Positions 1 to 19,551 of a DNA stretch of 22,402 nucleotides are shown in pieces. How positions within the stretch are numbered: the first letter of the stretch is position 1; each line of letters begins with the position of its first letter. Made by a program: the position numbers and the translations under genes. The notes beneath the pieces were generated by a model. It searched no databases, was not told the DNA's origin, and worked only from the letters and a program-made list of their open reading frames with translations. Origin of the DNA: Acidiferrobacteraceae bacterium (GTDB lineage Bacteria; Pseudomonadota; Gammaproteobacteria; Arenicellales; UBA868); NCBI GenBank assembly GCA_002721105.1, contig PBJL01000022.1, forward strand, positions 27,595 to 49,996, in the 5' to 3' direction.

Positions 1-281
1 GCACCGGTTGAAAGCTGTGATTCTATCAACCAACGGATGTATCCAATATCTTTCTGGCCAACAGCTTCAGCGACATGGGGGATTTTTCCAGTTGGCACGT
101 CTGCTTCGTCTTTTGGGTATGTACGTGAGATATCTAATCTACCCTTTTTATCAAATCCGTAAGTTACAAACGGTTTACCGCTCTCTATTACAACTCTTGG
201 GCCGTTTGCTCTGAAGTTTCGGGTGGTATTTATATTCTCCCCTATTACAATAAGGCCTAGTTTTTTAACATCAAAGTCCAC
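1..281 (-). CDS. Pterin-binding (methyltetrahydrofolate) methyltransferase, partial
   Basis: N-terminal 93 codons of a gene that continues past the left edge. Translating the minus strand from a GTG at 281 gives an uninterrupted protein with the segment IVIGENINTTR at about residues 10-20. That is the opening beta strand of the DHPS-like TIM barrel found in AcsE/MtrH-type CH3-tetrahydrofolate methyltransferases. It is followed by a conserved GQKDIGYIRWL segment. A purine-rich Shine-Dalgarno stretch (AGAGGG) lies just upstream of the GTG, and I see no in-frame ATG nearby. In such pathways this enzyme transfers the methyl group from a methyl-corrinoid protein to tetrahydrofolate, or the reverse. 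It lies about 200 bp downstream of the corrinoid protein gene on the same strand, as expected for a partner. The family call is firm; the exact substrate direction is inferred. Confidence 0.8.
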   Translation of the reverse strand, partial: MDFDVKKLGLIVIGENINTTRNFRANGPRVVIESGKPFVTYGFDKKGRLDISRTYPKDEADVPTGKIPHVAEAVGQKDIGYIRWLIESQLSTG

Positions 282-478
282 AGTCTGCCCTCTCTTTCCT
301 AAAATGAATGTTTTGTTCAGGTGATACCATGACTAAAGGGAATACTTCCTTTAACTAATACCACAGTTAGATGTTTAAGTTACTCAGGATTCGGATTCGA
401 ACTTTTCAACATATCCTTTAACCATGATGGCTAGAGTTATAGTTGTAGTAGCCATATCTAGGATGCCTGGAGTAAGCT

Positions 479-1159
479 TTAAGCAGCTTCGGTTACTAAA
501 TCCTCCACCAGCAGATTTGCTAGTTTAACTGTATGGGCTGCGTCAGGTGCGTAACCGTCAGCATCGATCTTTTCAGCCCAATCTGATGTTACTGGTGCTC
601 CGCCAACCATAATTGCGGCATCCTCTAATAGTCCCGCCTCATCAAATGCTTTAATCGTTTCTCGTTGCATTGGCATTGTCGTAGTTAGTAGTGCTGACAA
701 ACCCACCAAATTAGCATTGACTTCACGGCATTTATCCATAAATTTTTCAGGCGACGAGTTTGGTCCGATATTGTGAACTTCAAAACCATTTCCTCTTAAC
801 ATCATGGATACTATGTTCTGTCCGATGTCGTGTAGATCTCCTTTCACAGTTCCTATTACCACAATACCGCGTGGTGGCTCATTGGATGCCTCCAAAATTG
901 GTCTCAATAAATTCATGCAGGCATGCATAACCTTTGCCGAGAGCAATACTTCTGGAATGAAAATCTTTTCTTGCACCCATAATTCAGAAATGATATCCAT
1001 ACCAGATATAAGACCGCCATTTAAAATAGCTTTAGCGGCTTCGAGGTCGTTGAGACCTTCTTGTTTCAGAATTACGAGATCTTCTTCAACCGCTTTGACC
1101 GCGGTATCCGTCTCCGCCTCTACAATCGCATTCGCTATAACATCGTAGTCAACAGGCAT
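479..1159 (-). CDS. Corrinoid (B12-binding) methyltransferase protein, MttC/MtbC type
   Basis: A 226-residue methyl-carrier protein that holds cobalamin and shuttles a methyl group between a substrate methyltransferase and a pterin enzyme. An N-terminal helical cap domain (about residues 1-90) precedes a Rossmann-like B12 domain. The lower-ligand motif DxHxxG is present as DLHDIG at residues 108-113, with His110 as the expected cobalt ligand. The later SALLTTTM and VGGAPV segments of the B12 fold are also present. The length is normal for MttC, MtbC and MtgC. AGGAG sits 7 nt upstream of the ATG. The gene begins 26 bp after the MttB-family gene ends, so the two are almost certainly co-transcribed partners. 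A second corrinoid protein is coded at 9779-10627. Confidence 0.93.
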   Translation of the reverse strand: MPVDYDVIANAIVEAETDTAVKAVEEDLVILKQEGLNDLEAAKAILNGGLISGMDIISELWVQEKIFIPEVLLSAKVMHACMNLLRPILEASNEPPRGIVVIGTVKGDLHDIGQNIVSMMLRGNGFEVHNIGPNSSPEKFMDKCREVNANLVGLSALLTTTMPMQRETIKAFDEAGLLEDAAIMVGGAPVTSDWAEKIDADGYAPDAAHTVKLANLLVEDLVTEAA

Positions 1160-1185
1160 TTTTAGGCTCCTAGCACTTTAAAATT

Positions 1186-2733
1186 TTATAGGGATCTGAA
1201 TTTACGTCTTCGTTTCGCTTTGCTTGTTTTTCCAACCGCCAATGTTTCCTCACTTGTCGCTGATTTTGCTATTTCTTCTAGTGTTTGTAATGTTTCAGGT
1301 GGAAGTGGCTCTGGCGTATAGTTTTCAAGAATATCTCTAACTTTTTCGTTACAAACTTGGTGGGTGTATTTCGCACCCTTTTCCGTCCACGATTGGAAAT
1401 TATTTCTACTGAAAACTTCTGGCTGCCATTGCTCAGTTAAATAGTTTTCCGTTGTGTGATCCCGGTCGATGAATATCGCATTGGGAAGATTATCGCCCAC
1501 CTCTTGAACGACATCCATCGCTAGAGTTGAATTATCAATTGGGGCGCCTTTCATAAATCTACGCACCGAAGAGATTAGTTCATTACACAAAACCATGTGT
1601 TCAAAGGAACCAATGAGGTGTGATTCCATACTGCCTGCTCCAATATTGAGATGGCATCCGCTTAATGCCGCACAAAGATAGCTCCATAAAGCTTCCGCGC
1701 CCGCCTGCGCATCAACGACTTTAGAATCGGTAATGCCTGCTGTGGCCATAACTGGAAGGCCTAGTTCATGGCATAATTCAGTGTACATGCCGTGGAACAA
1801 ATGATATTCGGGTGCGCCCGACGATAGAATACCGAATTTCAGATCCATTATTCCTGGCAAAATCGCCATTACGAAAGGCGTTCCAGGCCTTTTTAATTGG
1901 ACCGCTATTAATCCCACCAACGCCTCAGCCAACGACTGTGCGGCGGCACCTGGCAATGTCACAGGTGATGATGCGCCTGACATGGTAAATGCGCCATATC
2001 GTACAGGTAGCCCTTCGCCTGCTAAGTACATAAATTTGTCGAAGGCATGATTTTTATGTTTCAAGGGAGATAGCACCTCGTCATATTGCAGGATAAAGGG
2101 CCGTTCTCGGAGTTTGTCCCAACCTCCCGCAATTACTGCAGCCATCTCGCAGATGGCTTTTGTATCAGGTACGTCGTTTGACAAGTAAATTATAGGCTTG
2201 GTGGTGTTCATCATCATGGCGTGAACTTCATGCACAAAACAGTCGAATCCATAATCATCGGCTAGCGACCCCAGGGCGAACATTGCATCTAGGTTAGGTA
2301 GTGCGTCATTTATTTTTGTGGCGTTACCGATATCCTCTTTTTTCCATGCTCGTCGTTCTCCAGTATATGGATCCCACATTTTTGGACATGCCGAAGTCGG
2401 AGAAAAGTAACTGTTACGCCCTTCGCAATAAAGACTCGGTTCACCTTTTCGATTGTACAGGAGCAGTCTTTTTGGAGTGAGTCTTAAACATTCCTCTATC
2501 AGTCGTTGAGGAAAGAATACTTTATCGCCTTCGTCGTCTAATGGTTCTATGCGACATCCTGCTTGGCGAAACAACTCGAGCGCTTCTTTACTGCCAACCC
2601 GTTGCCCGGTACGCTCTAACATTTCGTAGGCGGTATTTATCAGAATATGCTTTTGATCTTGAGATAGGATGCTCAACGATGGTGACATTTTCTGGGTTAA
2701 TCCTGCCCAACGTAAGTCTTTTACTGTACTCAT
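1186..2733 (-). CDS. MttB-superfamily (trimethylamine-type) corrinoid methyltransferase, non-pyrrolysine
   Basis: A 515-residue TIM-barrel methyltransferase of the MttB superfamily, which removes a methyl group from a quaternary or tertiary amine-like substrate and passes it to a corrinoid protein. The conserved blocks are visible, including AFTMSGASSPVTLPGA near residue 250 and MATAGITDSKVVDAQAG near residue 335. The frame is full length with no in-frame amber codon, so it is not the pyrrolysine-containing trimethylamine enzyme. It belongs with the non-Pyl homologues, of which MtgB (glycine betaine) is the best known. The cognate corrinoid gene follows after 26 bp. The last 15 or so residues form a very basic tail (SKAKRRRKFRSL). 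A purine-rich AGAGGGG lies about 13 nt before the ATG, a long spacing. The substrate cannot be read from sequence; betaine, carnitine, other methylamines or a methylated arsenical are all possible. Confidence 0.9.
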   Translation of the reverse strand: MSTVKDLRWAGLTQKMSPSLSILSQDQKHILINTAYEMLERTGQRVGSKEALELFRQAGCRIEPLDDEGDKVFFPQRLIEECLRLTPKRLLLYNRKGEPSLYCEGRNSYFSPTSACPKMWDPYTGERRAWKKEDIGNATKINDALPNLDAMFALGSLADDYGFDCFVHEVHAMMMNTTKPIIYLSNDVPDTKAICEMAAVIAGGWDKLRERPFILQYDEVLSPLKHKNHAFDKFMYLAGEGLPVRYGAFTMSGASSPVTLPGAAAQSLAEALVGLIAVQLKRPGTPFVMAILPGIMDLKFGILSSGAPEYHLFHGMYTELCHELGLPVMATAGITDSKVVDAQAGAEALWSYLCAALSGCHLNIGAGSMESHLIGSFEHMVLCNELISSVRRFMKGAPIDNSTLAMDVVQEVGDNLPNAIFIDRDHTTENYLTEQWQPEVFSRNNFQSWTEKGAKYTHQVCNEKVRDILENYTPEPLPPETLQTLEEIAKSATSEETLAVGKTSKAKRRRKFRSL

Positions 2734-2796
2734 CTTTTAAGTTGTACCCCTCTTTCTTTGCTTCTTAATGTTTGTTAAAAATATCTGACAATAACT

Positions 2797-2826: not shown

Positions 2827-3384
2827 CTAGCTTCCGAAATTTTGTGCGGCATCAACAATAAGGCCTGGTAATCCTTTCATAGCGGTGCCCGAAAGTCTTT
2901 TGGCTGCTGATTCCCTTCCGCTTTCGGCCAAATCGGTCATTGGGCCTGATTTTATAGCGCCAGTTGGGCATATTTCCTCGCACGCTCGAGGCATATCTAA
3001 CGGACGTTCTTTGCCGGGAGTTTGGCAAAAATTGCATTTTTCCATCTTGCCTTTAACCGATGAGAGTTGTGGGGCATTAAAAGGACAGGCCCAGGTACAA
3101 AAACCACAACCTATGCAAGTGTTTTGGTCCACAGTCACCACTCCATTTTCGGCATCTTTACTAATAGCACCCACAGGACACGCATCTTTACAAGGTGCAT
3201 TTCCGCAATGCATACAGGCCATTGATACGTTCATGCTTTTTACATTTGGGAATGTGCCCTCCTCAATTTTTACAACCTCTCTCCATCTGGGCCCAACGTC
3301 TACTTCATTCCATGTTTTACAGGCGATTTCACAGGCGTGACATTTTACACATCGTGTATGATCAAAGTAAAAACCGTGTTGCAT
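2827..3384 (-). CDS. Four-cluster [4Fe-4S] ferredoxin subunit of a molybdopterin oxidoreductase (DmsB/PsrB/NrfC type)
   Basis: A 185-residue electron-transfer subunit. Four cysteine groups occur in the order typical of DmsB-like proteins: CVKCHACEIAC (from residue 12), CMHCGNAPCKDACP (about residue 57), CIGCGFCTWACP (about residue 90), and CNFC followed by CEEICP (about residues 117-139). Together these bind four [4Fe-4S] clusters. There is no signal peptide, which matches the absence of a Tat signal on the catalytic partner coded directly upstream. An excellent Shine-Dalgarno site (AGGAGG, 8 nt from ATG) sets the start. The protein should relay electrons between the catalytic molybdenum subunit (3448-6198) and a membrane partner, plausibly the cytochrome b at 8594-9718. 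Confidence 0.93.
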   Translation of the reverse strand: MQHGFYFDHTRCVKCHACEIACKTWNEVDVGPRWREVVKIEEGTFPNVKSMNVSMACMHCGNAPCKDACPVGAISKDAENGVVTVDQNTCIGCGFCTWACPFNAPQLSSVKGKMEKCNFCQTPGKERPLDMPRACEEICPTGAIKSGPMTDLAESGRESAAKRLSGTAMKGLPGLIVDAAQNFGS

Positions 3385-3447: not shown

Positions 3448-6198
3448 TCATACTGCCGCTCGAATACGGACTTTGCATTCGTTATAGCAGTTAGCTCCCG
3501 TAATTGGGCTAGTGTGTGCCTCCATAAGGTTGTTTGAATGCGCTCCCTTACCTTTGGCTGTGGAACCCATAGCCCAGTGACCAAATCCGTGACCATGCCG
3601 GACGCTAACGCACCCTGGAACTAAACCTTCCGTTACTTTCACCTTGATTCTTATCTTGTCTTTGGGTGACTCAATCATAACGTAAGTATCATCCACAATC
3701 CCATATTTGGAGGCATCTTGGCTATTTATTTCTACCCAATTCTCTGGACAAATTTCCATGAGCAACGGATTATTTTGAGTAACGATATTGCAGTGCATGC
3801 TTAGTTTGGAATGCGTTAACTGGAGAGGGTATTCCGAATCTGGAATTACACTTCTTTCCGTATAAATCGGGTAGGGACTGAAGCCTGCGTCTGCATAGGC
3901 CGAGGACCGAATTTCAATTTTACCCGACGGAGTTGGTAGTCCATCAGGCACTCGGTTATATTTTCTATTTCCTACCCAGAACCCTTTATCTTTTAGTTCA
4001 CTGACACTCATTGGAACATTTTCCATCATTGGCTCTGCCCAATCTTCCCATTTTTCATAAGGGAAATGCTCTGCCCAACCCATTTTCTCTGCGATCCCTT
4101 TAACAATATCGTATAGAGGTTTCGATTCCCCTAAAGGCTCAATAGCTGGTTGACACAACACTACCTTTGGGTCGATGTACATACCTTGTCGGATTTCAGC
4201 ATGCTCATAAAACGAGGTTTCCGGCAATACAATATCGCACTCGATGGCCGTTTCGCTCATGAAAAGCTCAATTGCGACACTTAGCTCCAAATGTTTGAAC
4301 ATTTCTTTCATCAAGTCCGTGTCAGGATCACTCATGACTGGATTGGTGCTTTGAACAAACAACGCCTTTACGGGATATGGATTTCCATTAATAACCGCTT
4401 CAGGGAGTCGTGCATTGGGAAGATCAGGGGCTAACGGATACCCCATTGCGACATGCAGTGGTTGGGCATCGTTATTTGCTTTTGCCTCATCAGGAATGCT
4501 TACTGGTAGCCCTAACGGAGCCCAGTCTTTCAAATGGAGGTTTCCCGGCTTATCTACTTCACCACAAATGGCATTGAGGATGTAGCATGCACGGCCTGCA
4601 TCGGCACCATTCGTGTAATACCCTGACCCTTTAAAAATAGCTGACATAGCCGGTTTACTAGTTGCAAATTCTCGAGCGAGACGAGCAATGGTCTCGGCTG
4701 GAATTCCAGTGATATCAGCCGCCCATTCAGGGGTATAACCGCAACTTTGGAGGTGTTCCGCAAAACCATCGAACCCTTCGCAGTATCGGCTTACAAATTC
4801 AGTATCAAAAAGTTCTTCATTAGTGATGACATAACACATCGCAAGCGCCATCGCGCCATCTGTGCCAGGTTTGATGGGAATCCATTCATCAGCTTTCTGG
4901 GCTGTTTCTGTGAAATTTGGATCAACGACAACCAGTCTTGCTCCTTTTTTCTTTGCTTCAATTAATGCTCGGCTCTCCCATAGGCCTTGATTCGCCCCCA
5001 GCATGTTCATTCCCCACAACATGATATAACGAGAGTTTTCAAAATCATGCATTGGAAATAAATGTCCGAAAAGTGTCAGGCAAGCTGAACGTCTATCCAT
5101 TTCACAGCCCGACGTATGTGTGTAGTTATTTGGCGATCCATAAAGATCACCTAGGAGGTGACGGAAAAACTGAGTGTTTGGATCGTGGTGGCAGGTATAG
5201 ACGACAGATTCTGCCCCATAATTAGACTTGATCTCTTTTAATTTATCAGCGATGTAGGTAAAGGCTTCATCCCACGTTATTCTTTTAAATTCCCCGGGTT
5301 CTCCTTTTGGGTTAGTACGCAACATAGGGTACCTGAGCCGATCCGGATCTTGAGTAATATATGTGCTTGCCATGCCTTTAGCGCACCTTGACCCGATGTT
5401 ATGTGGTGATTCTGGATTTCCTTTTGTATAAACCACTTTTCCGTCTCGAACAAATACTTCGGTTGGACATTGCCATGGGCAAGTGTAGCAAAAGCTTTTT
5501 ATACGCTCTGCACCTTTTATGTCCGCTATCCTCGATCCTAAGTCTTGCGCTTGATTCATTTTGGTTCCCCTGTGTTTTGCTACTACTGATCCGTTATTAA
5601 CTCTCGTAACCGCCACGTTATTTGTTGTATCTGCTGTATTATTATTTGCGGCCACCAAAGTTTCGGTTGTGCTTGTTGCCAAGTTTACGTCTAATTGGTC
5701 GTTTTCTCCTAGAATTCTCCGTAACCGATCGCTCTTCCAAGTATGTCCATGCGATTCTTGAATGGCCCCAGTTAATTTATCTTTTAGCGCGGGTTTTTCA
5801 GTATTCTTCGTATTTTCTGCTGAAAGGTCCAACTTTCTATTGCTTACTTCTTTATTTGTACTGTCCTCTTGTCGATTTTCAGGGTTGCTAGCCTCGCTGT
5901 TTGTATTGGATATGTCATCGTTGCCAACAGCATCTTGTATGATTGTTCCAATCTCGACTGGGTTTTCTACTACCTCTAGGTCCATTATTCGGCGCAAACG
6001 GTCACTAATCCAATTAGGCCGCGCCTGGGTAATCGTCTTGACAGATTCAGCTTTGTTGGGCGTTGGCTTAGAATTACTTTGTGGAGTTAGAGGTTTTTCT
6101 GCTGTTTGAAGGGGCTCTTCTTGAATTAGGCGCGACTTTGATTTCGCGCCTGGTTCCGCCAAATCTCCAAACAATAATTCTCCCATGTGTTCAGACAA
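3448..6198 (-). CDS. Molybdopterin oxidoreductase catalytic subunit (DMSO reductase family, Psr/Phs/Arr-like) with long N-terminal extension
   Basis: A 916-residue protein. The enzyme proper begins near residue 230. The [4Fe-4S] ligands are Cys237, Cys240, Cys244 and Cys272 (CX2CX3CX27C). The likely Mo ligand is Cys365 in HTSGCEMDRR. The C-terminal dinucleotide-binding domain ends with HGHGFGHWAMG. A Cys ligand and this tail suit the polysulfide/thiosulfate/arsenate reductase branch; the substrate is not readable. There is no Tat signal, so the protein should be cytoplasmic. The first 213 residues are polar, low-complexity and probably disordered, with two copies of W-x-SDRLRRI (residues 63-71 and 154-162). 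The start is TTG, chosen because AAGGAG lies exactly 8 nt upstream; the next ATG is codon 5. A second ATG at codon 214 (5557-5559) has its own Shine-Dalgarno site, so a 703-residue form without the extension may also be made. The ferredoxin gene follows 63 bp downstream. Confidence 0.92.
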   Translation of the reverse strand: MSEHMGELLFGDLAEPGAKSKSRLIQEEPLQTAEKPLTPQSNSKPTPNKAESVKTITQARPNWISDRLRRIMDLEVVENPVEIGTIIQDAVGNDDISNTNSEASNPENRQEDSTNKEVSNRKLDLSAENTKNTEKPALKDKLTGAIQESHGHTWKSDRLRRILGENDQLDVNLATSTTETLVAANNNTADTTNNVAVTRVNNGSVVAKHRGTKMNQAQDLGSRIADIKGAERIKSFCYTCPWQCPTEVFVRDGKVVYTKGNPESPHNIGSRCAKGMASTYITQDPDRLRYPMLRTNPKGEPGEFKRITWDEAFTYIADKLKEIKSNYGAESVVYTCHHDPNTQFFRHLLGDLYGSPNNYTHTSGCEMDRRSACLTLFGHLFPMHDFENSRYIMLWGMNMLGANQGLWESRALIEAKKKGARLVVVDPNFTETAQKADEWIPIKPGTDGAMALAMCYVITNEELFDTEFVSRYCEGFDGFAEHLQSCGYTPEWAADITGIPAETIARLAREFATSKPAMSAIFKGSGYYTNGADAGRACYILNAICGEVDKPGNLHLKDWAPLGLPVSIPDEAKANNDAQPLHVAMGYPLAPDLPNARLPEAVINGNPYPVKALFVQSTNPVMSDPDTDLMKEMFKHLELSVAIELFMSETAIECDIVLPETSFYEHAEIRQGMYIDPKVVLCQPAIEPLGESKPLYDIVKGIAEKMGWAEHFPYEKWEDWAEPMMENVPMSVSELKDKGFWVGNRKYNRVPDGLPTPSGKIEIRSSAYADAGFSPYPIYTERSVIPDSEYPLQLTHSKLSMHCNIVTQNNPLLMEICPENWVEINSQDASKYGIVDDTYVMIESPKDKIRIKVKVTEGLVPGCVSVRHGHGFGHWAMGSTAKGKGAHSNNLMEAHTSPITGANCYNECKVRIRAAV
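5557..5571 (-). promoter_or_regulatory. Candidate internal ribosome binding site and ATG inside the Mo-subunit gene
   Basis: On the minus strand AGGGGA (5571-5566) lies 6 nt before an in-frame ATG (codon 214, 5559-5557). Translation from here would give a 703-residue enzyme beginning 23 residues before the first cluster cysteine, close to the usual start of this family. The upstream TTG start has an equally good site (6207-6212), so two products from one gene are plausible. Confidence 0.5.
5710..5739 (-). repeat. Second copy of the W-x-SDRLRRI peptide repeat in the Mo-subunit extension
   Basis: Codes for WKSDRLRRIL (residues 154-163). It matches the copy at 5983-6012 in eight of ten residues, 91 residues apart. 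Nearly every shared residue except the invariant Trp uses a different codon in the two copies, so the likeness is at protein level rather than from recent DNA duplication. Confidence 0.75.
5983..6012 (-). repeat. First copy of the W-x-SDRLRRI peptide repeat in the Mo-subunit extension
   Basis: Codes for WISDRLRRIM (residues 63-72), surrounded by Asn-, Ser-, Glu- and Pro-rich sequence. It resembles the segment DRLRYPM of the enzyme's own folded N-terminal region (residues 286-292), hinting that the extension mimics a part of the catalytic subunit. Confidence 0.75.
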
Positions 6199-6383
6199 TG
6201 CTGATTCTCCTTGTATTGTGTAGTTCGAATTCTAACAACAAAATAAAAGCTCTGTTACGCCTAAATCCTGAAATTTAGCACAAAAAAGAAATCTCTTATC
6301 AAAGTTTGAGGAACCATAGAGCATCAAAAGTTATTTTCGGCATTTATCACTATCTGGGCCAATATTAGATAACCGAAGCTTAT
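6199..6383 (-). promoter_or_regulatory. Intergenic region upstream of the Mo-subunit gene, with an 18-bp inverted repeat
   Basis: This 185-bp gap probably carries the promoter for the Mo-subunit/ferredoxin/MttB/corrinoid run. CTAAAT and ATTTAG are perfect inverted arms around a 6-base spacer at 6261-6278. A possible promoter on the minus strand is TTGATA, 17 bases, then GCTAAA preceded by TG (extended -10 style); it overlaps the dyad, so binding there could control initiation. The promoter call is weak; the inverted repeat is directly visible. I see no convincing terminator for the CDGSH gene. Confidence 0.35.
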
Positions 6384-6656
6384 TTAGAAATCAAAAAAAT
6401 CGTTTTTTCGCTTTGATGCGTTACCGGTGCAATTTCCAAAACAATACGGTTTGTTATCACTCCGCTTACATCCACACATATAGAAGACGCCATTCACTGG
6501 AGCCTTAAAGGTTATCGGTTCAAAATCCGTTTCAGCATGCGAATCGTCACACCATGGTTGAGTTTTACTTAAACCGCAACTACACCAACGGTAAACACTG
6601 CCCGCTTTGACTTCGACAGCATAGGGAGCGTTTTGTGAGGATTTAGGATATTTCAT
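6384..6656 (-). CDS. Double-CDGSH iron-sulfur protein with altered second site
   Basis: A 90-residue small protein with two CDGSH-type cluster sites. The first, CSCGLSKTQPWCDDSH (residues 25-40), keeps the three Cys and one His (Cys25, Cys27, Cys36, His40) that bind a [2Fe-2S] cluster, with Asp in place of the usual Gly. The second, CGCKRSDNKPYCFGNC (residues 61-76), has the same spacing, but the usual Asp is Phe73 and the ligand His is Cys76. CDGSH proteins act in redox or cluster transfer. The gene starts 31 bp after the LysR stop and has no clear Shine-Dalgarno site, so it may be translated after LysR. A role as accessory redox protein for the demethylation genes is inferred from position only. 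Confidence 0.88.
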   Translation of the reverse strand: MKYPKSSQNAPYAVEVKAGSVYRWCSCGLSKTQPWCDDSHAETDFEPITFKAPVNGVFYMCGCKRSDNKPYCFGNCTGNASKRKNDFFDF

Positions 6657-6687
6657 ATCTAAACTAGAAGATATGGGATAGCTTAAG

Positions 6688-7590: not shown

Positions 7591-7627
7591 GACAAGTCTT
7601 CCAGTATTAACCAATATTCTTTGTTCA

Positions 7628-7640
7628 TATAAATCTTATA
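7628..7640. promoter_or_regulatory. T-N11-A dyad upstream of lysR (candidate LysR box)
   Basis: TATAA-ATC-TTATA is a perfect 5-bp inverted repeat in the T-N11-A form typical of LysR-family binding sites, 38 bp before the lysR ATG. It is AT-rich, so it could also be part of a promoter. Confidence 0.35.
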
Positions 7641-7644
7641 AACC

Positions 7645-7662
7645 TTGCCTGATAAAAGGCAA
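7645..7662. promoter_or_regulatory. 18-bp inverted repeat upstream of lysR
   Basis: TTGCCT and AGGCAA form perfect 6-bp arms around a 6-base spacer. The element sits 20 bp after the stop codon of the kinase/cold-shock gene and 55 bp before the lysR start. It may be an operator for the regulator or a short hairpin at the end of the preceding gene; there is no T-run after it, so I favour an operator. Confidence 0.4.
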
Positions 7663-7681
7663 ACAATTTCATTGTGTTTAG

Positions 7682-8509: not shown

Positions 8510-8593
8510 TTAAATCTAATCCTATTTATATAATTTGTTATTCAAAAATAATTGTTCGAACGTTTATAGAAAATTTAACTCCATAGTGTTGTT

Positions 8594-9718: not shown

Positions 9719-9778
9719 ATTCTCAAAAAAATAGATTCAGGCGCAACCCTAACCTTAGAATAAACTAAGTAACAAAAT

Positions 9779-10627: not shown

Positions 10628-10674
10628 GTTTTATTCCCTTTTGAGTATTGGCATGTGTATTTGACCATTAGATT

Positions 10675-12226: not shown

Positions 12227-13402
12227 TTACGGGGTAAAATCCTGAAATGCCCCGTCTTTGAATACAACCCATGACATATCTTTAACGATGAAGTGATCTG
12301 GGGCTCCACCTGTGCCAATGCTAATAGAAGGAACAACACTATCAGTCCAACCTTGGATTCCCTCAAGAGTCTCCACTAGCCGGTCTCGAGTTAAATTGTC
12401 ACGACCCATTCGTCGCATCGCTTCGGTAAACACCTGAGCACCCGCAAACCCCCAAAGGTGCACTGCCCCCGGGGTTTCCTCTGGGTAATATTTAAGCAAT
12501 AAGGATTTCGCTTCTTGAATTTGTGGTGCTGGAGAATCAAAGTCCCGAAAGATCGTGGCAAAATGGATGCCTTCGATTGCATCGTCACCTGCTAGTTCTG
12601 GCACCTTAGGGCTTTTACCAAAAAATACGTTCACAACAGGTACATCCCAACCCAATTTCTTCCGTTCCGTATAAAACCGTGCGGCTGGCTCAGGCGCGCA
12701 TGAACACACGACTGCATCCGGATTTTTATTTTTCATCGCAACAGCTTGCGCACTAACGTCAATTTCCTTTTGCTCATAGCCTTCCTTAGCAACTAACGTA
12801 ACTCCGTGCTCATCCAAAACTGACTCAATTCCTTGTATATGGGTTTGGCCTGACGGATCGTTCTGGTAAAGAAGTGCAATCGTCTTAGCGCCATAAACAT
12901 TCTTTGCAAACTTCACAAGTTCTTGACCTTCAGTAAAATAACTTGGATAAAGTGGGAAAACATACTTACTTGGATGTTCCAAGTTTTTCGCAGCGCCAGT
13001 ACCCGCGCCAATAAGTGGTACTTTCATGTCTGTTATATAATCAATAACTGCTGATGTCGGTGCTGAGCCAAGCGGTGCAACAATAGCAAAACACTTATCT
13101 CTTTCAATAAATCTTTTGACGGCAGTTTTAGTTCTCGCTGGCTCGTATTTATCATCAACCATGCGGAAATTCACCATGCGTCCGTGAATGCCTCCTGTTT
13201 CGTTTACATGCTTAAACCAAGCGTCTGCTCCTTTACCCATTCTAAAGTAACTAGAAACCTTTCCTGTCATAGGCTGATATGAACAGATTAAAATTTCGTC
13301 ATCACTGATTCCTGGGCCATTGTCTGCCATAGCTATGGTGCTACCTATTCCGATTAAGCTAGCAAATATACTAGTAGCGATCGTCTTAAGATATTTCTTC
13401 AT
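12227..13402 (-). CDS. ABC transporter periplasmic substrate-binding protein (LivJ/LivK family)
   Basis: A 391-residue binding protein from the chosen ATG. A signal peptide is clear: MKKY at the start, a hydrophobic core to about residue 22, and probable cleavage after AMA. The mature part has the two-lobed Leu/Ile/Val-binding-protein fold (segments GADAWFKHVNETGGIHG and VDDKYEPARTKTAVKRFIE). An upstream GTG at 13420 is in frame but lies inside the GGAGG ribosome site, so the ATG at 13402 (11 nt spacing) is preferred. It forms one transport operon with livH, livM, livG and livF. Members of this family bind amino acids, amides, urea or small aromatic acids, so the name does not fix the solute. 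Context suggests the methylated substrate of the enzymes downstream. Confidence 0.93.
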   Translation of the reverse strand: MKKYLKTIATSIFASLIGIGSTIAMADNGPGISDDEILICSYQPMTGKVSSYFRMGKGADAWFKHVNETGGIHGRMVNFRMVDDKYEPARTKTAVKRFIERDKCFAIVAPLGSAPTSAVIDYITDMKVPLIGAGTGAAKNLEHPSKYVFPLYPSYFTEGQELVKFAKNVYGAKTIALLYQNDPSGQTHIQGIESVLDEHGVTLVAKEGYEQKEIDVSAQAVAMKNKNPDAVVCSCAPEPAARFYTERKKLGWDVPVVNVFFGKSPKVPELAGDDAIEGIHFATIFRDFDSPAPQIQEAKSLLLKYYPEETPGAVHLWGFAGAQVFTEAMRRMGRDNLTRDRLVETLEGIQGWTDSVVPSISIGTGGAPDHFIVKDMSWVVFKDGAFQDFTP

Positions 13403-13471
13403 TTTAGTGTTGTCCTCCACAAATAATGTTTAAAATCATTCCCTCTTTCAAATATCAATTTTTTGGCAGTC

Positions 13472-14191
13472 TCAACTACGAATGCCGAGATACGAATTGA
13501 TTACTTCTCGCTTATTTTGTAATTCGGAAGAATCACCAGCGATTGCGATCTTCCCTACTTCCATAACATAACCAAAACTCGAGTTCTTCATCGCTATATT
13601 AGCGTTTTGCTCAACGATCAACAGTGTAGTTCCATTCTCTTTATTTACTCTTTGGATAGTCTCAAAAATTGCAGAAACTATAATAGGAGCCAGACCTAAA
13701 GATGGCTCATCGAGCAATAATAACTTCGGGCGCGCCATTAGCCCACGTCCGATTGCGAGCATTTGCTGTTCTCCACCACTTAGCGACCCGCCCAACTGCT
13801 TCCATCTATTCTTAAGCACTGGGAATAATTCAAATACCATATTCAAATCGGATTCGATTCCTGCTTTATCCTTTCGAATATATGAGCCCATACGAAGATT
13901 TTCTGTTACAGATAAATCCTTAAAAATTCGCCTTCCTTCGGGCACCTGCGCTATCCCCATCTTAACAAGTTGGTTTGGAGTTCTCCCCGAAATACTTTGC
14001 CCTTCATAGCTAATCGAGCCAGAAGAGACTTTCATCATTCCAGATATGGTTTTAAGCGTTGTTGATTTTCCGGCACCATTTGCACCTAGGAGAGTTACGA
14101 TAGATCCCTGTTCTACATCTATAGTTACCCCTCGTAATGCACGGATAGCTCCATAACTTGCTTCTACTGCCTGTAAACTCAATAGCGGCAT
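13472..14191 (-). CDS. livF: Branched-chain amino acid-type ABC transporter ATP-binding protein LivF
   Basis: A 239-residue cytoplasmic ATPase. Walker A is GANGAGKST, the ABC signature is SGGEQQMLAIGRGL and Walker B is LLLLDEPSLGL. It ends near the family's usual length. The frame can begin at a TTG (14197) that overlaps the livG stop, but the ATG two codons later has GAGG 7 nt upstream and is preferred. With LivG it powers the LivHM permease. Confidence 0.95.
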   Translation of the reverse strand: MPLLSLQAVEASYGAIRALRGVTIDVEQGSIVTLLGANGAGKSTTLKTISGMMKVSSGSISYEGQSISGRTPNQLVKMGIAQVPEGRRIFKDLSVTENLRMGSYIRKDKAGIESDLNMVFELFPVLKNRWKQLGGSLSGGEQQMLAIGRGLMARPKLLLLDEPSLGLAPIIVSAIFETIQRVNKENGTTLLIVEQNANIAMKNSSFGYVMEVGKIAIAGDSSELQNKREVINSYLGIRS

Positions 14192-14193
14192 AG

Positions 14194-14952
14194 TCAATCC
14201 TCTCCCAGATAGGCCTTTATAACATCCGGGTTATTTTGGATTTCGCTAGGAGTGCCTTGTGCCAAATTTTCTCCGAAATTAATCGCATATATGTAATCAC
14301 AAGAATCCATCACCATCGACATATCGTGTTCTACTAAAAAGAAAGTGATACCGAGATCACGATTTAATCTCTTTATTGACTCTTTGAGATCATTGGTTTC
14401 TTCGTCATTACAACCAGCTACAGGCTCATCCAATAGAACAATTTCTGGGTCCGATGCCAAAGCTCTTGCTAATTCCACTCTCTTTTGGAGACCATAAGGT
14501 AGGCTAGCTGCAATATGATCAAGATAATCTTCAAGATGTAAAATTTCCGCGATTTCATGTGCTCGTTTATATAATTTCTTTTCGTTGCGTCGAGCACTCG
14601 GCAACGAAAACATGCTTGCCAATGGATTACCAAGCCGGTGATGTGCCCCAATTAAGATGTTATTTAATGCTGTTTGGTCTTTGAATAAATTGATATTCTG
14701 AAAAGTTCGAACAAGTCCCAGTGAAGCCATGTCATGCGGCTTTTTCGTGTCAATGCTCTCACCGTTAAAATAAATGTGTCCAGATTCGTGCTCCTGAAAA
14801 CGGGTCAGCACGTTAAATAGTGTAGTTTTACCAGCACCGTTGGCTCCTATCAAACCTGATACTTGACCTTTTTCTACCTCCAAAGAAATATTTTTGCAAG
14901 CCAAAACACCCCCGAATCTGACCGTGATATCTTCACAAGTGAGCGCTTTCAT
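14194..14952 (-). CDS. livG: Branched-chain amino acid-type ABC transporter ATP-binding protein LivG
   Basis: A 252-residue ATPase with Walker A GANGAGKTT (residues 36-44), the LivG-type signature region LPYGLQKRVELARAL and Walker B IVLLDEP. The signature departs slightly from the usual LSYGQQRRLEIARAL. The segment after Walker B (VAGCNDEETNDL) keeps the LivG pattern with Cys-Asn-Asp in place of Met-Asn-Pro. AAGG lies 5 nt before the ATG. It sits 37 bp after livM and abuts livF, consistent with one operon. Confidence 0.95.
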   Translation of the reverse strand: MKALTCEDITVRFGGVLACKNISLEVEKGQVSGLIGANGAGKTTLFNVLTRFQEHESGHIYFNGESIDTKKPHDMASLGLVRTFQNINLFKDQTALNNILIGAHHRLGNPLASMFSLPSARRNEKKLYKRAHEIAEILHLEDYLDHIAASLPYGLQKRVELARALASDPEIVLLDEPVAGCNDEETNDLKESIKRLNRDLGITFFLVEHDMSMVMDSCDYIYAINFGENLAQGTPSEIQNNPDVIKAYLGED

Positions 14953-14989: not shown

Positions 14990-16039
14990 TTATTCGATCA
15001 CGCCACGCGCTTTAGCTAGCTTTTTAGCCCGCCTTCGCATAAAAGGTCTTCCGATCAATTCAGCCACTCCTAGCGGTGCTATCCAAAGCACCACAATCAA
15101 AGCAACACCCTTGAAAATATATGAGAAGTCAGCCATCCTCTCTAAAAAGAATGGAACCATCACCACAAACGTTCCTCCGATTAAAGGTCCCATCAACATG
15201 GCTGAACCACCAATAACGGACGCCATCAAAATATCCGCCGAATACCAAATATCAGCATAGACTTCGGAGGACACATAATTAACGTAATGGCCACTAAGCA
15301 CTCCTGCGATACCTGTTATCGACGCGCTTACAGTAAAACCAACCGTTCGGAAAAACCATCGATTAACACCGCTACTCTGCGCGGCATTTTCAGCATCTCT
15401 TAACGCCATTAAAGCTCGGCCAACGCCAGAACGCGTTAAGCTATACATGAAAAGAAGAACCATTGCGAACAAAATCACTGAGACATAGTAAAACCCATAG
15501 TCACCAATCTCAATTCCGAAGATTTGGTTAGCTGGAAGTGATATACCGGTCCGACCTTGGAAGAAAGGTATATTGTTTACAATAGTTCCAATAAAAAAAG
15601 CGAACCCTAAGGTACCGACGGCCATAAATGCGCCTGACAACCGTAAGAAAATAAGTGCTAAAACCATACCAAAAATGCCTGTTACAACTGCGCCTGCTAA
15701 AATACCTACAGCAAGGTCTATCCCATAATGGAATGTTAATAGAGCCGAGGTGTACGCTCCTATAGCTAGAAATCCACCATGCCCCATAGACACCAATCCG
15801 GTGTAACCAGTAAGCACTGCTTGCCCTTGCGCCGCTATCACATATATCAATATTATTGTGCCTTGGGCAGCCATCCATCCTTCTACGAAAGGCAATATCG
15901 GCACGATGAGAAGAATCCCCACAAATGCTGTAACAAAAATCCAGGAGTTACGTTTATAAAGTTGTTTAAGCGCGCTTACCTTTTTATTTACATCAACCCT
16001 GTGGCTTGTTATGTCGTTTTGTTCCGTTGAATTATTCAT
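14990..16039 (-). CDS. livM: Branched-chain amino acid-type ABC transporter permease LivM
   Basis: An integral inner-membrane permease of about 349 residues. The diagnostic motif TGYTGLVSMGHGGFLAIGA is present near the start of the permease core, followed by eight or so hydrophobic segments, with a basic tail (FMRRRAKKLAKARG). The start is uncertain. A TTG at 16081 overlaps the livH end; the ATG at 16039 lies 13 nt after the livH stop but has no Shine-Dalgarno site, so translation may be coupled to livH. The roughly 30-residue polar N-terminus before the first membrane span is longer than usual. Confidence 0.92.
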   Translation of the reverse strand: MNNSTEQNDITSHRVDVNKKVSALKQLYKRNSWIFVTAFVGILLIVPILPFVEGWMAAQGTIILIYVIAAQGQAVLTGYTGLVSMGHGGFLAIGAYTSALLTFHYGIDLAVGILAGAVVTGIFGMVLALIFLRLSGAFMAVGTLGFAFFIGTIVNNIPFFQGRTGISLPANQIFGIEIGDYGFYYVSVILFAMVLLFMYSLTRSGVGRALMALRDAENAAQSSGVNRWFFRTVGFTVSASITGIAGVLSGHYVNYVSSEVYADIWYSADILMASVIGGSAMLMGPLIGGTFVVMVPFFLERMADFSYIFKGVALIVVLWIAPLGVAELIGRPFMRRRAKKLAKARGVIE

Positions 16040-16052
16040 GGAGTTACACAGT

Positions 16053-16922
16053 TTAAATCTCACGACGTTGCTGGATAGCAAACAAACCTTGAGGTCTTAA
16101 GCTGAGCAACACAACGATCATTGCGAACGCAGTAACGGTTTTGTAGTGAGAGCCGATATAACCACCGGCGAGATTTTCTGCCACACCAATCATTAGCGCT
16201 CCAACGATCGCACCTGGTATAGAGTATAAGCCTCCAAAAACTGCAGCTACATAACCTTTAATCAATACGTCGTCCATCATTTCAGGCGAAACATAAATAA
16301 TTGGAGCTGTTAGAACACCTGCGAAAGCAGCTAAAAAACCTGCTACCGCCCAGGTTAACATCACAATAAAACGTACTGGAATCCCCATCATTCGAGCCGC
16401 CTCAGGATCGTCTGTAACGGCACGCAGGGCAATGCCTTGGCGCGTGTACTTAAAAAACAGAAACAACACTACACCTATACCGATGGTCCAAGAGACATTA
16501 ATTAAATGACCTTTGCTGATCGCAGCGCCCAAAAAATCCACAGGAGTGGTATCAAACGTAATTGGAAACGATTTGGTATCGCGGCCCCATAGTAAACCGG
16601 CTACCCCGTGTAATATAAAATAAACTCCCAAGGTTGCATGAAACAAAATCAACCAATCTGAGTCTGCTAACGGCCTCATGACAATCCGTTCAGTTATTAC
16701 TCCAATACCCATTACGGCTATAACTGTGATTGCAACGGTTGCTAAGTAATGTAAGCCCAGTCCCTTAAGGAGTAACAGAGCGATAAACGCTCCCATCATA
16801 GCGAAATCCCCTTGAGCGAGATTGATGGTCCGGGTATTGCGAAAAACCACCACAACACCAACAGCGGTTAGTGCGTATAAACCGCCTACGGCCAACCCAT
16901 CGGTAACTAACTGCACAAACAT
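16053..16922 (-). CDS. livH: Branched-chain amino acid-type ABC transporter permease LivH
   Basis: A 289-residue permease with the LivH motif INLAQGDFAMMGAF near residue 35, multiple membrane spans and the conserved AVFGGLYSIPGAIVGALMIG block near residue 230. AGGGG lies 6 nt before the ATG. It is first of the transport genes and pairs with LivM to form the membrane channel. A probable promoter with a -10 TATAAT (17037-17042) lies about 115 bp upstream. Confidence 0.95.
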   Translation of the reverse strand: MFVQLVTDGLAVGGLYALTAVGVVVVFRNTRTINLAQGDFAMMGAFIALLLLKGLGLHYLATVAITVIAVMGIGVITERIVMRPLADSDWLILFHATLGVYFILHGVAGLLWGRDTKSFPITFDTTPVDFLGAAISKGHLINVSWTIGIGVVLFLFFKYTRQGIALRAVTDDPEAARMMGIPVRFIVMLTWAVAGFLAAFAGVLTAPIIYVSPEMMDDVLIKGYVAAVFGGLYSIPGAIVGALMIGVAENLAGGYIGSHYKTVTAFAMIVVLLSLRPQGLFAIQQRREI

Positions 16923-17084: not shown

Positions 17085-17399
17085 TTACAATTTAGTATCT
17101 ATTTTGTGGTGCCCAGTGCAGCAGTTCTTAACAAGATATCCTATTGTCTCGTCCATTAAGTCAAAATTAGCACAATAGATTAATTTGCGTCCCTCTCTTT
17201 TCACAGAAATGAGATCAGTCGATCTAAGGTTTTTTAAATGGAAAGAAAGCGTGCTCGCCGACACTGTCAGTTCCTCTTGGATGGCGCTTGGGCTTGCGCC
17301 GTTATAACCTGCTCTTACCAAATGCCGAAAAATTTCTAACCTTCTGTCGTGTGCTAACCCTGCAAAAACCTCTACTGCTTTTTTGGTATTCAAACTCAT
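17085..17399 (-). CDS. arsR: ArsR-family repressor
   Basis: A 104-residue winged-helix repressor. The recognition helix region is VSASTLSFHLKNLRSTDLI (about 46-64). The metal-sensing ELCVC motif of the E. coli type is absent. Instead a Cys pair (Cys93, Cys94) followed by His97-His98 lies in the C-terminal helix, at the place where the AfArsR-type As(III) site has its Cys pair. The third Cys of that site is not present after the pair; Cys76 is the only other Cys. It lies 32 bp downstream of arsA and ends the ars run, an unusual last place for the regulator. It likely represses the arsD promoter and possibly others here. Confidence 0.87.
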   Translation of the reverse strand: MSLNTKKAVEVFAGLAHDRRLEIFRHLVRAGYNGASPSAIQEELTVSASTLSFHLKNLRSTDLISVKREGRKLIYCANFDLMDETIGYLVKNCCTGHHKIDTKL

Positions 17400-17431
17400 G
17401 TCTTTTGGAACACGGGAGCCTGTTCGATCGA

Positions 17432-19201
17432 CTAAGCGATATGCCTACAGTTCTCTGTTTTAGCGCTGTTTTCCGACGCTAAAGGTTCTTCTAGCCAAGG
17501 TAAAATAAATGACTTTTGAGCATACTGATCACAAACTTCTCGAATGTAGCGATGTTCTTGATTTTTTCTTGAGCTTAGGACGGGATGGTTGGTTGTCAGT
17601 GGCGCTAAACTCTGGTTAATAACCCATGCGTAAGGATGGATGCTTGCGCGACGAAGATCATTTTGAAGCTCGGACGCTTCATGCACTGGAGTTGCTTCAG
17701 CCAACGTGCAAATAATTGGAAACGTAAAATCAGCATCCCTGAGACGTGGTAATAATTCAAGCACATGCTGCGGAACCATACGAGCTTGGCGCTCGACTTC
17801 CTTGTGGAAAGATTGAGCCGCATCAAGCAATAGAATGGTATGTCCTGTTGGTGCCGTATCAAGAACCACAATTTTTTCTGTCGCTGTTTCAACAGTTTTT
17901 GCAAAGGCTTGAAAAACTGCTATCTCCTCCGTGCATGGTGACGATAAATCTTCTTCCAAAAGTGCCCGGCCATTTTCATCCAAATTTGCTCCAGTTGTTG
18001 ATAACACTTCGTTGCGGTACCTTTCAACCTCAACTGCCGGATTTATTTCTGCAAGCTCAAGATACTTTGAACCCTCTCCAACAACTTGCCGTATGTGTGC
18101 AGCAGGGTCGGTGGTAGCTAACAACACATCCTTCCCCTGACTCGCCAAGCTCTTCGCAATTTTTGCCGCTATTGTTGTTTTCCCTACACCACCTTTTCCC
18201 ATGGTCATAATTAAACCACGTTTCAAGGATGAAAACTTATCAATTAGAGTATCGACACTAGGTGGTAGTATGCCAGCAAAACTATCAGGCTGGATAGCAG
18301 GCAAATCTCCGTCGGAAAGCAATCCTCTTAATGAGTTAATCCCGATAAGTTGACCTGATTTTAATGGAAGACGGTTTTGTTTAAGTTTAGTTAAAGTGTT
18401 GGGTATGTTTTGCAAAGCTAAATCACCGCGTGTGTAAAATGCATGAGCTAGAGGATCACTGTTTGCGGATTGATCAAACACCCCATTAATTACTAATTGT
18501 TGCTCTTGGAGTCCGGCGCCTTCAAGTTCTTCGCTTGTTCGCGCCGCTTCTTCCAGCGCCGTTTTTTCGGGGCGAGCAACTAAAATAATAGTTGTTAAAG
18601 AATCACTTTTTAGAACATCTACCGCTCGAGCATAAAGTTTCTGTTGGGCTATCATCCCTTTCAGTGGGCCTATGCAGGATGTCCCTGCAGTGTTATTGCC
18701 GATATAACCTGTCCAGGCTGCAGGCAAAGTTAAGAGGCGTAGTGTATGACCCGTAGGTGCCGTATCAAAAATAACATGATCAAATTTCTCCACCAGGTCC
18801 GGTTTACCAAGAAGTTTTGCGAATTCATCAAACGCTGCTATTTCAACAGTACAAGCGCCCGCTAATTGTTCTTCCATGCTAGCAATCGCTGCCTCCGGCA
18901 ATAGTTCGCGATATGGGCCAATCATACGCTCCCTATACTGTTCTGCTGCTACATCTGGGTCTACATTTAATGCCCAGAGGTTCTCAATTCTCCTAATTTT
19001 AGTAGGAGACGTTCCTACTTCGTTTTCCAGAACCTCATCTACGTTTGAAGCGGGATCTGTCGAAACCAAAAGCACCGTTTTTCTTTGATCTGCTAGAGCA
19101 ACCGCAATAGCGCAGGCTGTTGAAGTTTTTCCGACTCCGCCTTTACCTGTAAAAAAAATATTCGGCGTTTTAAGCGAATCTGTACTTATCATCCGCAACA
19201 T
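17432..19201 (-). CDS. arsA: Arsenical pump-driving ATPase ArsA
   Basis: A 589-residue two-half ATPase of full length. P-loops GKGGVGKTS (residues 19-27) and GKGGVGKTT (335-343) mark the A1 and A2 halves. The three cysteines that bind As(III)/Sb(III) in plasmid R773 ArsA are all kept: Cys117 (ACTVEIAAFDEF), Cys176 (SCIGPLKG) and Cys423 (SPCTEEIAVF). DTAPTGHT occurs in both halves. ArsA takes arsenite from ArsD and drives the ArsB or Acr3 pump, which is not in this window. The arsD and arsA frames overlap. The ATG at 19201 has AAGGA 5 nt upstream; a second ATG three codons later overlaps the arsD stop as ATGA and is also plausible. Confidence 0.96.
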   Translation of the reverse strand: MLRMISTDSLKTPNIFFTGKGGVGKTSTACAIAVALADQRKTVLLVSTDPASNVDEVLENEVGTSPTKIRRIENLWALNVDPDVAAEQYRERMIGPYRELLPEAAIASMEEQLAGACTVEIAAFDEFAKLLGKPDLVEKFDHVIFDTAPTGHTLRLLTLPAAWTGYIGNNTAGTSCIGPLKGMIAQQKLYARAVDVLKSDSLTTIILVARPEKTALEEAARTSEELEGAGLQEQQLVINGVFDQSANSDPLAHAFYTRGDLALQNIPNTLTKLKQNRLPLKSGQLIGINSLRGLLSDGDLPAIQPDSFAGILPPSVDTLIDKFSSLKRGLIMTMGKGGVGKTTIAAKIAKSLASQGKDVLLATTDPAAHIRQVVGEGSKYLELAEINPAVEVERYRNEVLSTTGANLDENGRALLEEDLSSPCTEEIAVFQAFAKTVETATEKIVVLDTAPTGHTILLLDAAQSFHKEVERQARMVPQHVLELLPRLRDADFTFPIICTLAEATPVHEASELQNDLRRASIHPYAWVINQSLAPLTTNHPVLSSRKNQEHRYIREVCDQYAQKSFILPWLEEPLASENSAKTENCRHIA

Positions 19202-19551
19202 CCAGATCCTTGGTTTTTGGTGTCGATTTTTAACACCTGCGGTAAATCAAGTTGAAAGGCAGCAGCTAAATCTTTTCGTGACATATAACCACCGGTCTTA
19301 ATTACTTGGTTGTTTGCGATTAATAATGGAAGGCACTCGATACCTTCTGTTTCTAGCTTTGATTTCACTGTGTCATTGGTGGCAAATTCTCCCGGTTCAA
19401 ACCCTAAATTAAAGCGCTCTACTGAAACCCCAGAGCTTTTAAGCCATTCCAAAGATGCCGCAAATTGCGCCGGCTCATCATCGGCATCCGGACCACAAGC
19501 GCCAGTAGCGCAGCACTGTACGGGGTCATAAACCTGCAGTTTTCCTGTCAT
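19189..19551 (-). CDS. arsD: Arsenical metallochaperone ArsD
   Basis: A 120-residue thioredoxin-fold chaperone that binds As(III) and hands it to ArsA. The needed cysteines are present as VQCCATGACG (Cys13, Cys14, Cys19), matching the Cys12-Cys13-Cys18 site of R773 ArsD. A second Cys pair ends the protein (CCG, Cys118-Cys119). It overlaps arsA by 13 bp. An AGGA lies 9 nt upstream of the ATG. It is the first gene of the arsD-arsA-arsR run, which faces the acyl-CoA synthetase gene across a shared 167-bp control region. Confidence 0.95.
   Translation of the reverse strand: MTGKLQVYDPVQCCATGACGPDADDEPAQFAASLEWLKSSGVSVERFNLGFEPGEFATNDTVKSKLETEGIECLPLLIANNQVIKTGGYMSRKDLAAAFQLDLPQVLKIDTKNQGSGCCG

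Follow-up and report, generated by a model that had tools for sequence, protein, structure and literature searches.

To our knowledge, the only demethylation gene described so far for methylated arsenic is arsI, which acts on methylarsenite, and none is known for di- or trimethylated forms. Methylated compounds rank among the important arsenic species of the sea and of paddy soils, and straighthead disease of rice can be caused by dimethylarsenic (PMC10579292). The accessible part of the same paper describes a methylotrophic methanogen that demethylates dimethylarsenite, that is, the trivalent and not the pentavalent form, with label reaching methane in coculture. Among gene systems, the closest described ones are the methylotrophic systems of the UroD superfamily, such as MtaA/MtbA and the mlp clusters (PMC10418091, as far as accessible), which share with the system described here a UroD-type methyltransferase, its two-domain corrinoid partner, an activator of the RACo type and, in many cases, a pterin-binding methyltransferase. 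The S-methyltransferases of this superfamily use a His-Cys-Cys zinc site (PMC10418091). The present analysis concerns a stretch of 22,402 nucleotides from an Acidiferrobacteraceae bacterium (assembly GCA_002721105.1, contig PBJL01000022.1, positions 27,595 to 49,996), referred to below as the window. Its minus strand carries a run of 19 co-directional genes (positions 3-19551) in which arsD, arsA and arsR stand together with an importer, a UroD-type protein (UroD1) and its corrinoid protein (CorC1). There is good support for a conserved genomic unit in which a corrinoid methyltransfer system is linked to arsenic genes. The run is probably the uptake-and-demethylation half of a corrinoid pathway for methylated arsenic that feeds folate one-carbon metabolism, for which we infer both the substrate and the direction.

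The genes of the run overlap or are separated by short gaps, the largest being 217, 197, 185 and 162 base pairs. The gene list, order and range given in a first-pass annotation of the same DNA stand, as every gene named there is an open frame on the minus strand; the run contains in addition a LysR-family regulator, a CDGSH iron-sulfur protein and a kinase-like and cold-shock-like protein. A profile scan for UroD1, using one genome per species, yielded 31 loci, all in genomes entitled metagenome-assembled genome (MAG). By title they are alpha-, beta- and gammaproteobacteria, apart from one Candidatus Muproteobacteria and one unplaced proteobacterium. The UroD1 homologues comprise 370 proteins, the best 120 of which are 69-92% identical to the window UroD1. 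The recurring order is MoOx-Fdx-(ArsR/ArsD/ArsA)-(LivHMGF-SBP)-UroD1-CorC1-CytB-(kinase-like)-(LysR)-CDGSH, where MoOx is a molybdopterin oxidoreductase, Fdx its iron-sulfur subunit, CytB a membrane cytochrome b, and LivHMGF with the periplasmic binding protein (SBP) a Liv-type importer. Across the 31 loci, many of which break off at contig ends, CorC1 was called in 29, CytB in 25, MoOx or Fdx in 22, Liv permeases in 16, LysR in 16 and ArsA in 10. The CDGSH protein keeps seven cysteines and one histidine in 24 of 24 rows. The gene order is more than chance, since it is found again in relatives whose titles place them in several classes. The first-pass annotation had proposed looking for conservation of this order, especially of arsDA with the mttB/corrinoid pair; the order itself recurs in the 31 loci, whereas MttB was called in none of them. 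A plasmid location of UroD1 was dismissed, as plasmids gave only two distant matches (27 and 30% identity). In locus L005 a partial second UroD1 match (68%, positions 8282-10001) lies upstream of the full copy. In four gammaproteobacterial loci, phoU and pst phosphate-uptake genes follow the UroD1 core; these were recognised through a PstS-family match under its cut-off in L008 and by eye in L002, L003 and L004.

The connection with arsenic, which had earlier been drawn from gene order alone, is borne out by the relatives: ArsA adjoins UroD1 in 10 of the 31 loci, and the genomes show a strong enrichment in genes for arsenic enzymes. In nine of the ten ArsA-bearing loci, ArsA lies between MoOx or Fdx on one side and LivH or UroD1 on the other. 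It is not beside UroD1 in the remaining loci, many of which are cut by contig ends. An eleventh genome (G019) has arsDA on a separate contig, between a divergent MoOx-Fdx pair and a MIP channel. Absence of arsDAR from this neighbourhood in relatives, named beforehand as grounds for abandoning the arsenic link, is thus not what was found. Background counts of UroD1, UroD2 (a second UroD-type protein, described below) and ArsA were taken from an even sample of 289 genomes of the class of G018, or 288 without G018 itself; G018 is a Rhodospirillaceae MAG by title, presumably of class Alphaproteobacteria, and the 31 UroD1 genomes span several classes. The curated cut-offs were 90 bits for ArsD (NF033727), 650 for ArsA (TIGR04291), 55 for ArsR (NF033788) and 359 for the arsenite oxidase subunit AioA. 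ArsA exceeds its cut-off in 20 of the 31 UroD1 genomes versus 6 of the 288 others (7 of 289 in the full sample, one being G018); in G011, which would be the 21st, the protein is cut and scores below the cut-off. UroD1 itself occurs in 1 of the 289, namely G018. With this sample as background, the Fisher values are 5.9e-19 for ArsA, 1.2e-28 for AioA2 (an AioA kind described below) and 2.6e-41 for UroD2, and they measure enrichment only, because the genomes are not independent and the 31 were reached through UroD1 itself.

In a tree of 28 ArsA sequences, the window and 19 sequences from UroD1 genomes (11 linked, 8 unlinked) fall on one side of a branch (99/98). All six background rows and two rows from UroD1 genomes (G027 and G011) lie outside this group, and the window row has a long branch. 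Cys117, Cys176 and Cys423 of ArsA are conserved in 11 of 11 rows, and Cys13, Cys14, Cys19, Cys118 and Cys119 of ArsD in 10 of 10, the window included in both; these are the cysteines that we take to form the As(III) sites. Separately, arsDA occurs in five MAGs that are Rhodospirillaceae or Magnetovibrio by title (L064-L068), where inspection of the surroundings by eye recognised no arsB or acr3.

The regulator adds information on the kind of arsenical. The arsenite sensor AfArsR has Cys95-Cys96-Cys102, and SpArsR, which is without the third cysteine, answers to methylarsenite only (PMC11868830 and PMC13236881, as far as accessible). The window ArsR has a C-terminal Cys93-Cys94 pair and no later cysteine, which is the SpArsR-type arrangement, and it is predicted from this site to be a methylarsenite sensor. 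No other evidence inside the window speaks for an organic arsenical. All eight linked ArsRs of the window type (the window, L006, L010, L014, L015, L017, L028 and L030) carry the C-terminal pair, and in six of the eight, i.e., the window and five of the seven linked loci, no cysteine follows; a duplicate row (L149) and an incomplete sequence (L204) were left out of this comparison. In the ars operon of G001 (L115), two ArsRs have a cysteine 7 residues after the pair, and in L070, L072 and L189 it follows after 9, 13 and 10 residues, respectively.

A second corrinoid module accompanies UroD1 in the relatives. UroD2, 25-30% identical to UroD1, is present in 30 of the 31 UroD1 genomes versus none of the 288 others; the exception is the MAG G023, of which the contigs seen are 4.5-6.8 kilobases (kb) long. 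No UroD2 was seen in the window. The neighbours called in the 30 UroD2 stretches, some of which are short, are a corrinoid protein and RACo (29 stretches), an activation-domain-like protein (25, by eye, with no Pfam match), CobW (25), a pterin-binding protein (24), GntR (20), an MTHFR-like protein (17) and a MIP channel (15). When UroD2 is aligned to 4ay7, the second cysteine of the 4ay7 zinc site, presumably the third zinc ligand, aligns with a histidine. The island of G001 also holds FolD, formate-tetrahydrofolate ligase, ArsC, ArsJ with its GAPDH and an ArsK-like exporter (under its cut-off). The idea that gammaproteobacteria lacking ArsA are free of arsenic-related genes was dropped: a MIP channel lies beside the UroD2 module in G003, G007 and G008, which gave no ArsA or AioA matches, and the UroD2 neighbours in G004 include ArsR, an ArsI/CadI-like gene and another MIP-family gene.

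The arsenite oxidase subunit AioA exceeds its cut-off in 25 of the 31 UroD1 genomes, in G027 only through a low-scoring relative, and in none of 14 control genomes. There are two main kinds: AioA2, 65-83% identical to the copy in L018 and present in 23 of the 31 genomes, and canonical AioA, 41-46% identical to it. AioA2 occupies one side of a tree branch (98/92), and the copies in L018, L021 and L022 score 963-984 bits. His195, Glu203, Arg419 and His423, which we take to be arsenite-site residues, are present in 23 of 23 sequences, and the Fe-S ligands in the 21 that are not cut there. AioA2 was found in 0 of 288 other genomes of the G018 class sample, where AioA matches whose locus was not retrieved (389-423 bits, a low-scoring third kind) were told apart from AioA2 by their score only. 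A second background, the class sample of G013, has it in 2 of 311 other genomes. In 12 of the 23 genomes AioA2 lies on the UroD1 contig, at a distance of 5.0-22.8 kb in 11 and of 59 kb in one; on two complete chromosomes, G013 and G026, they are far apart. In L129 and L134, one strand carries genes for the pterin-binding protein, UroD2, a corrinoid protein, RACo, CobW, GntR, the MTHFR-like protein, AioB2, AioA2, a pentapeptide protein, a MIP channel, MoOx, Fdx and UroD1, and L131 has the same run with two extra frames before MoOx, one of them on the other strand. Use of AioA2 as a UroD-exclusive marker was ruled out by two genomes, G547 and G430, which have AioA2 but neither UroD1 nor UroD2; the searches for the two UroD proteins that covered them gave no match in any of 10 genomes and had no internal positive control. 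In these two genomes the AioBA2-pentapeptide-MIP cassette occurs by itself (L223, positions 3486-8384; L224, positions 6584-11482), as an independent unit for arsenite oxidation that belongs to a second AioA lineage.

UroD1 itself has features of a UroD-superfamily corrinoid methyltransferase, namely a UroD fold in its predicted model, an HxC zinc motif and an adjacent corrinoid protein. The model (predicted local distance difference test, pLDDT, 69.6) resembles UroD (3cyv) and methylcobalamin:CoM methyltransferase (4ay7). H311 and C313 are present in 31 of 31 rows and H399 in 30 of 31; judged by position only, His399 sits in a motif like that of the 4ay7 zinc ligand. By its alignment to 4ay7, UroD2 does not have the His-Cys-Cys zinc site of the S-methyltransferases (MtaA/MtbA/mlp), and neither, by position, does UroD1. 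Among molybdenum reductases of the PhsA/ArrA type, MoOx exceeds the curated cut-off of no named enzyme: it is nearest PhsA (427 bits versus a cut-off of 694) and scores 192 versus 1600 for ArrA, and its best solved chain is thiosulfate reductase 2vpw, with ArrA 6cz7 further off. The MoOx relatives listed start near the residue equivalent to M214 and by eye show no evident signal peptide, so MoOx is probably cytoplasmic. The 213-residue extension ahead of this point is of low complexity, repeats a W.SDRLRRI(M/L) motif and is missing in the relatives listed.

MttB had been part of the demethylation route proposed in the first-pass annotation. The corrinoid route and the arsenic link of that proposal are supported, and MttB as a core enzyme is not. 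An MttB relative (E <= 1e-60) occurs in only 1 of the 31 UroD1 genomes, G014 (84% identity), on a contig other than that of UroD1, beside its own corrinoid, pterin-binding, MTHFR-like and RACo genes; the first 14 kb of this 24-kb contig hold no arsenic gene of the compared set. MttB was consequently ruled out as a core enzyme. By profile it matches TIGR02369 with 351 bits (under the cut-off of 525), and its best solved chains are 2qne and 9yce, glycine betaine methyltransferase (191 bits each), with trimethylamine methyltransferase chains at 160. The partner that is conserved is instead UroD2, which comes with a corrinoid protein and RACo and in many cases with a pterin-binding protein. Since MttB lies outside the conserved core, the argument that had pointed to arsenobetaine through the MtgB branch of the MttB family is unsupported; the data fit methylarsenicals as a class better than arsenobetaine specifically, and the MttB module of the window is either a neighbour or an added branch. 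BHMT-like genes lie near UroD1 or AioA2 in 10 of the 31 genomes (L115, L006, L011, L012, L020, L116, L117, L130, L132 and L133), the one in G001 being over the cut-off of PRK07534. They are possible betaine demethylases or, by analogy with the split methionine synthase described in PMC12478193 (accessible part), the homocysteine part of such an enzyme.

These genes can be arranged into a pathway. The Liv-type ABC system would import the organoarsenical, and cytoplasmic MoOx with Fdx and CytB would reduce its pentavalent form to the trivalent one with electrons from quinol. Through UroD1, a methyl group would then pass from trivalent arsenic to the Co(I) of CorC1, and UroD2 may act likewise, with the corrinoid protein of its module, on another methyl group or intermediate. 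An order of reduction before demethylation fits, because it is trivalent and not pentavalent dimethylarsenic that the methylotrophic methanogen uses. The pterin-binding protein would pass the methyl group to tetrahydrofolate for oxidation by folate enzymes, the candidate genes for which are present in relatives (MTHFR-like in many islands; FolD and formate-tetrahydrofolate ligase in G001), and RACo, also encoded in relatives, would re-reduce inactive Co(II). Released arsenite would go to ArsD and ArsA for export and, in the 23 of 31 relatives that have the genes, may be oxidised outside by AioBA. The two-cysteine ArsR would sense methylarsenite. The MttB-corrinoid-pterin module of the window may supply a methyl acceptor or handle a betaine-type methyl group.

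Several observations weigh against this pathway. All of its evidence is genomic and UroD1 is a candidate enzyme, whose model is only moderately confident and whose sequence gave no match to solved structures at E 0.001 and nothing meaningful up to E 10. Nine of the 31 loci, two of them on complete chromosomes (L013 and L026), have no called MoOx or Fdx, so the molybdenum enzyme need not adjoin UroD1. No arsB or acr3 is among the window genes, and neither was searched for genome-wide. Two linked ArsRs, L015 and L030, have a further cysteine 13 and 7 residues after the pair, and L005 and L024 carry, beside ArsA, a different ArsR-type regulator with an N-terminal CxC, which is outside the count given above. 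The ArsI/CadI-like match in G004 falls just below its cut-off (110.5 versus 116 bits). Five genomes (G002, G003, G004, G007 and G008) have UroD1 and UroD2 with no ArsA over the cut-off and no AioA at E 1e-50, so by these searches the core can exist without them, and the occurrence of AioA2 without either UroD protein in 2 of the 311 genomes is contrary to the prediction made. The last two points are also what would be expected if the corrinoid system demethylated a sulfur, nitrogen or selenium compound, such as dimethylsulfoniopropionate, betaines or methyl sulfides or selenides, and had arsenic genes nearby because of its place in a resistance or arsenite-oxidation island. For the UroD, MttB and corrinoid families known so far, the substrates are O, S, N, Se or halogen compounds (PMC10418091, accessible part), and the BHMT-like genes near islands would suit such a substrate as well. 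This explanation is unlikely, although it deserves to be taken seriously: the ArsAs of UroD1 genomes are mostly of one lineage whether linked or not, ArsA is placed inside the gene run in nearly all loci that carry it, the ArsR site is of the organoarsenical type, and UroD2 has a histidine in place of the presumed third zinc-ligand cysteine of the S-methyltransferase 4ay7.

A pathway for methylated arsenic could also run in reverse, with folate methyl groups being put on arsenite through the corrinoid proteins, for detoxification or for organoarsenical synthesis. In principle both the folate and the corrinoid steps can go either way, and FolD and formate-tetrahydrofolate ligase of G001 could supply the methyl groups; this direction is nevertheless very unlikely, as the importer, ArsA-ArsD and arsenite oxidase fit the release and not the capture of arsenite, and ArsM of other bacteria already methylates arsenite with S-adenosylmethionine (PMC11868830, accessible part). 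Still more improbable, to the point of being nearly negligible, is a methylated relative of arsenic such as methylantimony as the substrate, with ArsA, ArsD and Aio acting on antimony too. ArsA and ArsD do handle antimonite as well as arsenite, but methylated arsenic is far commoner than methylantimony in sea water and soil, and the G001 island includes ArsJ and ArsC. Arsenobetaine is a special case within the demethylation of methylated arsenic rather than an addition to it: MttB in the window, or BHMT elsewhere, would take the first methyl group and the UroD modules the rest. The glycine betaine methyltransferase among the best solved relatives of MttB and the BHMT-like genes in about a third of the genomes speak for this case, which is distinctly doubtful given the single genome with MttB on a contig separate from UroD1 and given that BHMT may just belong to a split methionine synthase, as its homocysteine part (cf. 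PMC12478193, accessible part).

Table 1. Features in and beside the gene run of the window (window positions).
Feature	Position	Strand	Evidence and remarks
arsD, arsenite metallochaperone	19189..19551	-	NF033727, 99.4 vs 90 bits
arsA, arsenite-efflux ATPase	17432..19201	-	TIGR04291, 768.6 vs 650 bits
arsR, predicted methylarsenite sensor, SpArsR-like	17085..17399	-	ArsR/SmtB family NF033788, 57.5 vs 55; Cys93-Cys94
livH-type permease	16053..16922	-	PF02653, BPD_transp_2
livM-type permease	14990..16081	-	PF02653, BPD_transp_2
livG-type ATPase	14194..14952	-	PF00005, PF12399
livF-type ATPase	13472..14197	-	PF00005
Importer periplasmic binding protein, Peripla_BP_6, Liv type	12227..13420	-	PF13458, 206 bits
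UroD1, candidate arsenical:corrinoid methyltransferase	10675..12009	-	PF01208, 68 bits; model nearest 3cyv, 4ay7
CorC1, cognate corrinoid protein	9779..10627	-	PF02310, PF02607
CytB, membrane cytochrome b, probable quinol-side anchor	8594..9718	-	PF02665, NarI-type, weak (24.5 vs 22.9)
Kinase-like plus cold-shock-like protein	7682..8509	-	Weak CSD and cytidylate-kinase matches; recurs in some loci
LysR-family regulator	6688..7614	-	PF03466, PF00126
CDGSH iron-sulfur protein	6384..6656	-	PF09360
In-frame 213-codon N-terminal extension of MoOx	5560..6198	-	Missing in 12 long relatives listed
MoOx, molybdopterin oxidoreductase core, candidate methylarsenical(V) reductase	3448..5559	-	PF00384
Fdx, DmsB-like 4Fe-4S subunit of MoOx	2827..3384	-	TIGR02951, 148 bits, cut-off 214
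MttB-family methyltransferase, accessory	1186..2733	-	PF06253, 290 bits; open frame without in-frame stop
Corrinoid protein of MttB module	479..1159	-	PF02310, PF02607
Pterin-binding methyl-corrinoid:tetrahydrofolate methyltransferase	3..281	-	Cut by window end
AMP-ligase	19719..21371	+	Divergent from the run
AMP-ligase plus enolase-superfamily gene	19719..22400		Divergent stretch beside the run; enolase-superfamily gene by eye

The pterin-binding fragment at the window end has no Pfam match of its own; it is 37-49% identical to genes of related islands, one of which (L131, positions 327-1322) matches PF00809. Genes 54-62% identical to the divergent AMP-ligase lie near the islands of G020, G006 and G030 (L020, L122 and L133), and this enzyme perhaps activates a carboxylic side chain.

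If demethylation of methylated arsenic is indeed the function, the genes would identify enzymes of a little-understood step in the arsenic cycle and join that cycle to one-carbon metabolism. The set provides testable enzymes, candidate organisms and metagenome markers in the form of the UroD1/UroD2 pair. Among the matches listed from the open-licence literature, none ties these genes to arsenic demethylation, which is weak evidence of absence as subscription papers are mostly outside that body.

CmuA and CdmB are UroD-superfamily corrinoid systems for chloromethane. Compared with MtaA/MtbA and the mlp clusters, the present system differs in its link to arsenic genes, in the molybdenum oxidoreductase, ferredoxin and cytochrome b that recur in its core, and in UroD2, with histidine at the 4ay7 cysteine position, as well as UroD1, with His399 in a like motif. 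The main text of the mlp paper (PMC10418091) contains the string "arsen" zero times. The MtgB/MtgC/MtgD system for glycine betaine demethylation (Ruegeria pomeroyi; Desulfitobacterium) resembles the MttB-corrinoid-pterin module at the left end of the window, but this module is not conserved with the arsenic core. The C-As lyase ArsI and ArsM are similar in that both handle methylarsenite. However, ArsI is a dioxygenase and involves no corrinoid. ArsM likewise works without a corrinoid, by methylation with S-adenosylmethionine (PMC11868830, accessible part). Dimethylarsenate demethylation by Methanomassiliicoccus shares the use of a trivalent methylarsenical, the passage of the methyl group to one-carbon metabolism and a proposed corrinoid route, whereas that system is archaeal and methanogenic, and the accessible part of the paper names no gene (PMC10579292). 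Finally, arsenic islands with aioBA and ars genes have AioBA, ArsA/D/R and a MIP channel in common with the loci described here, along with ArsC and ArsJ in G001; in contrast to such islands, these loci join the arsenic genes to a corrinoid-folate methyl pathway.

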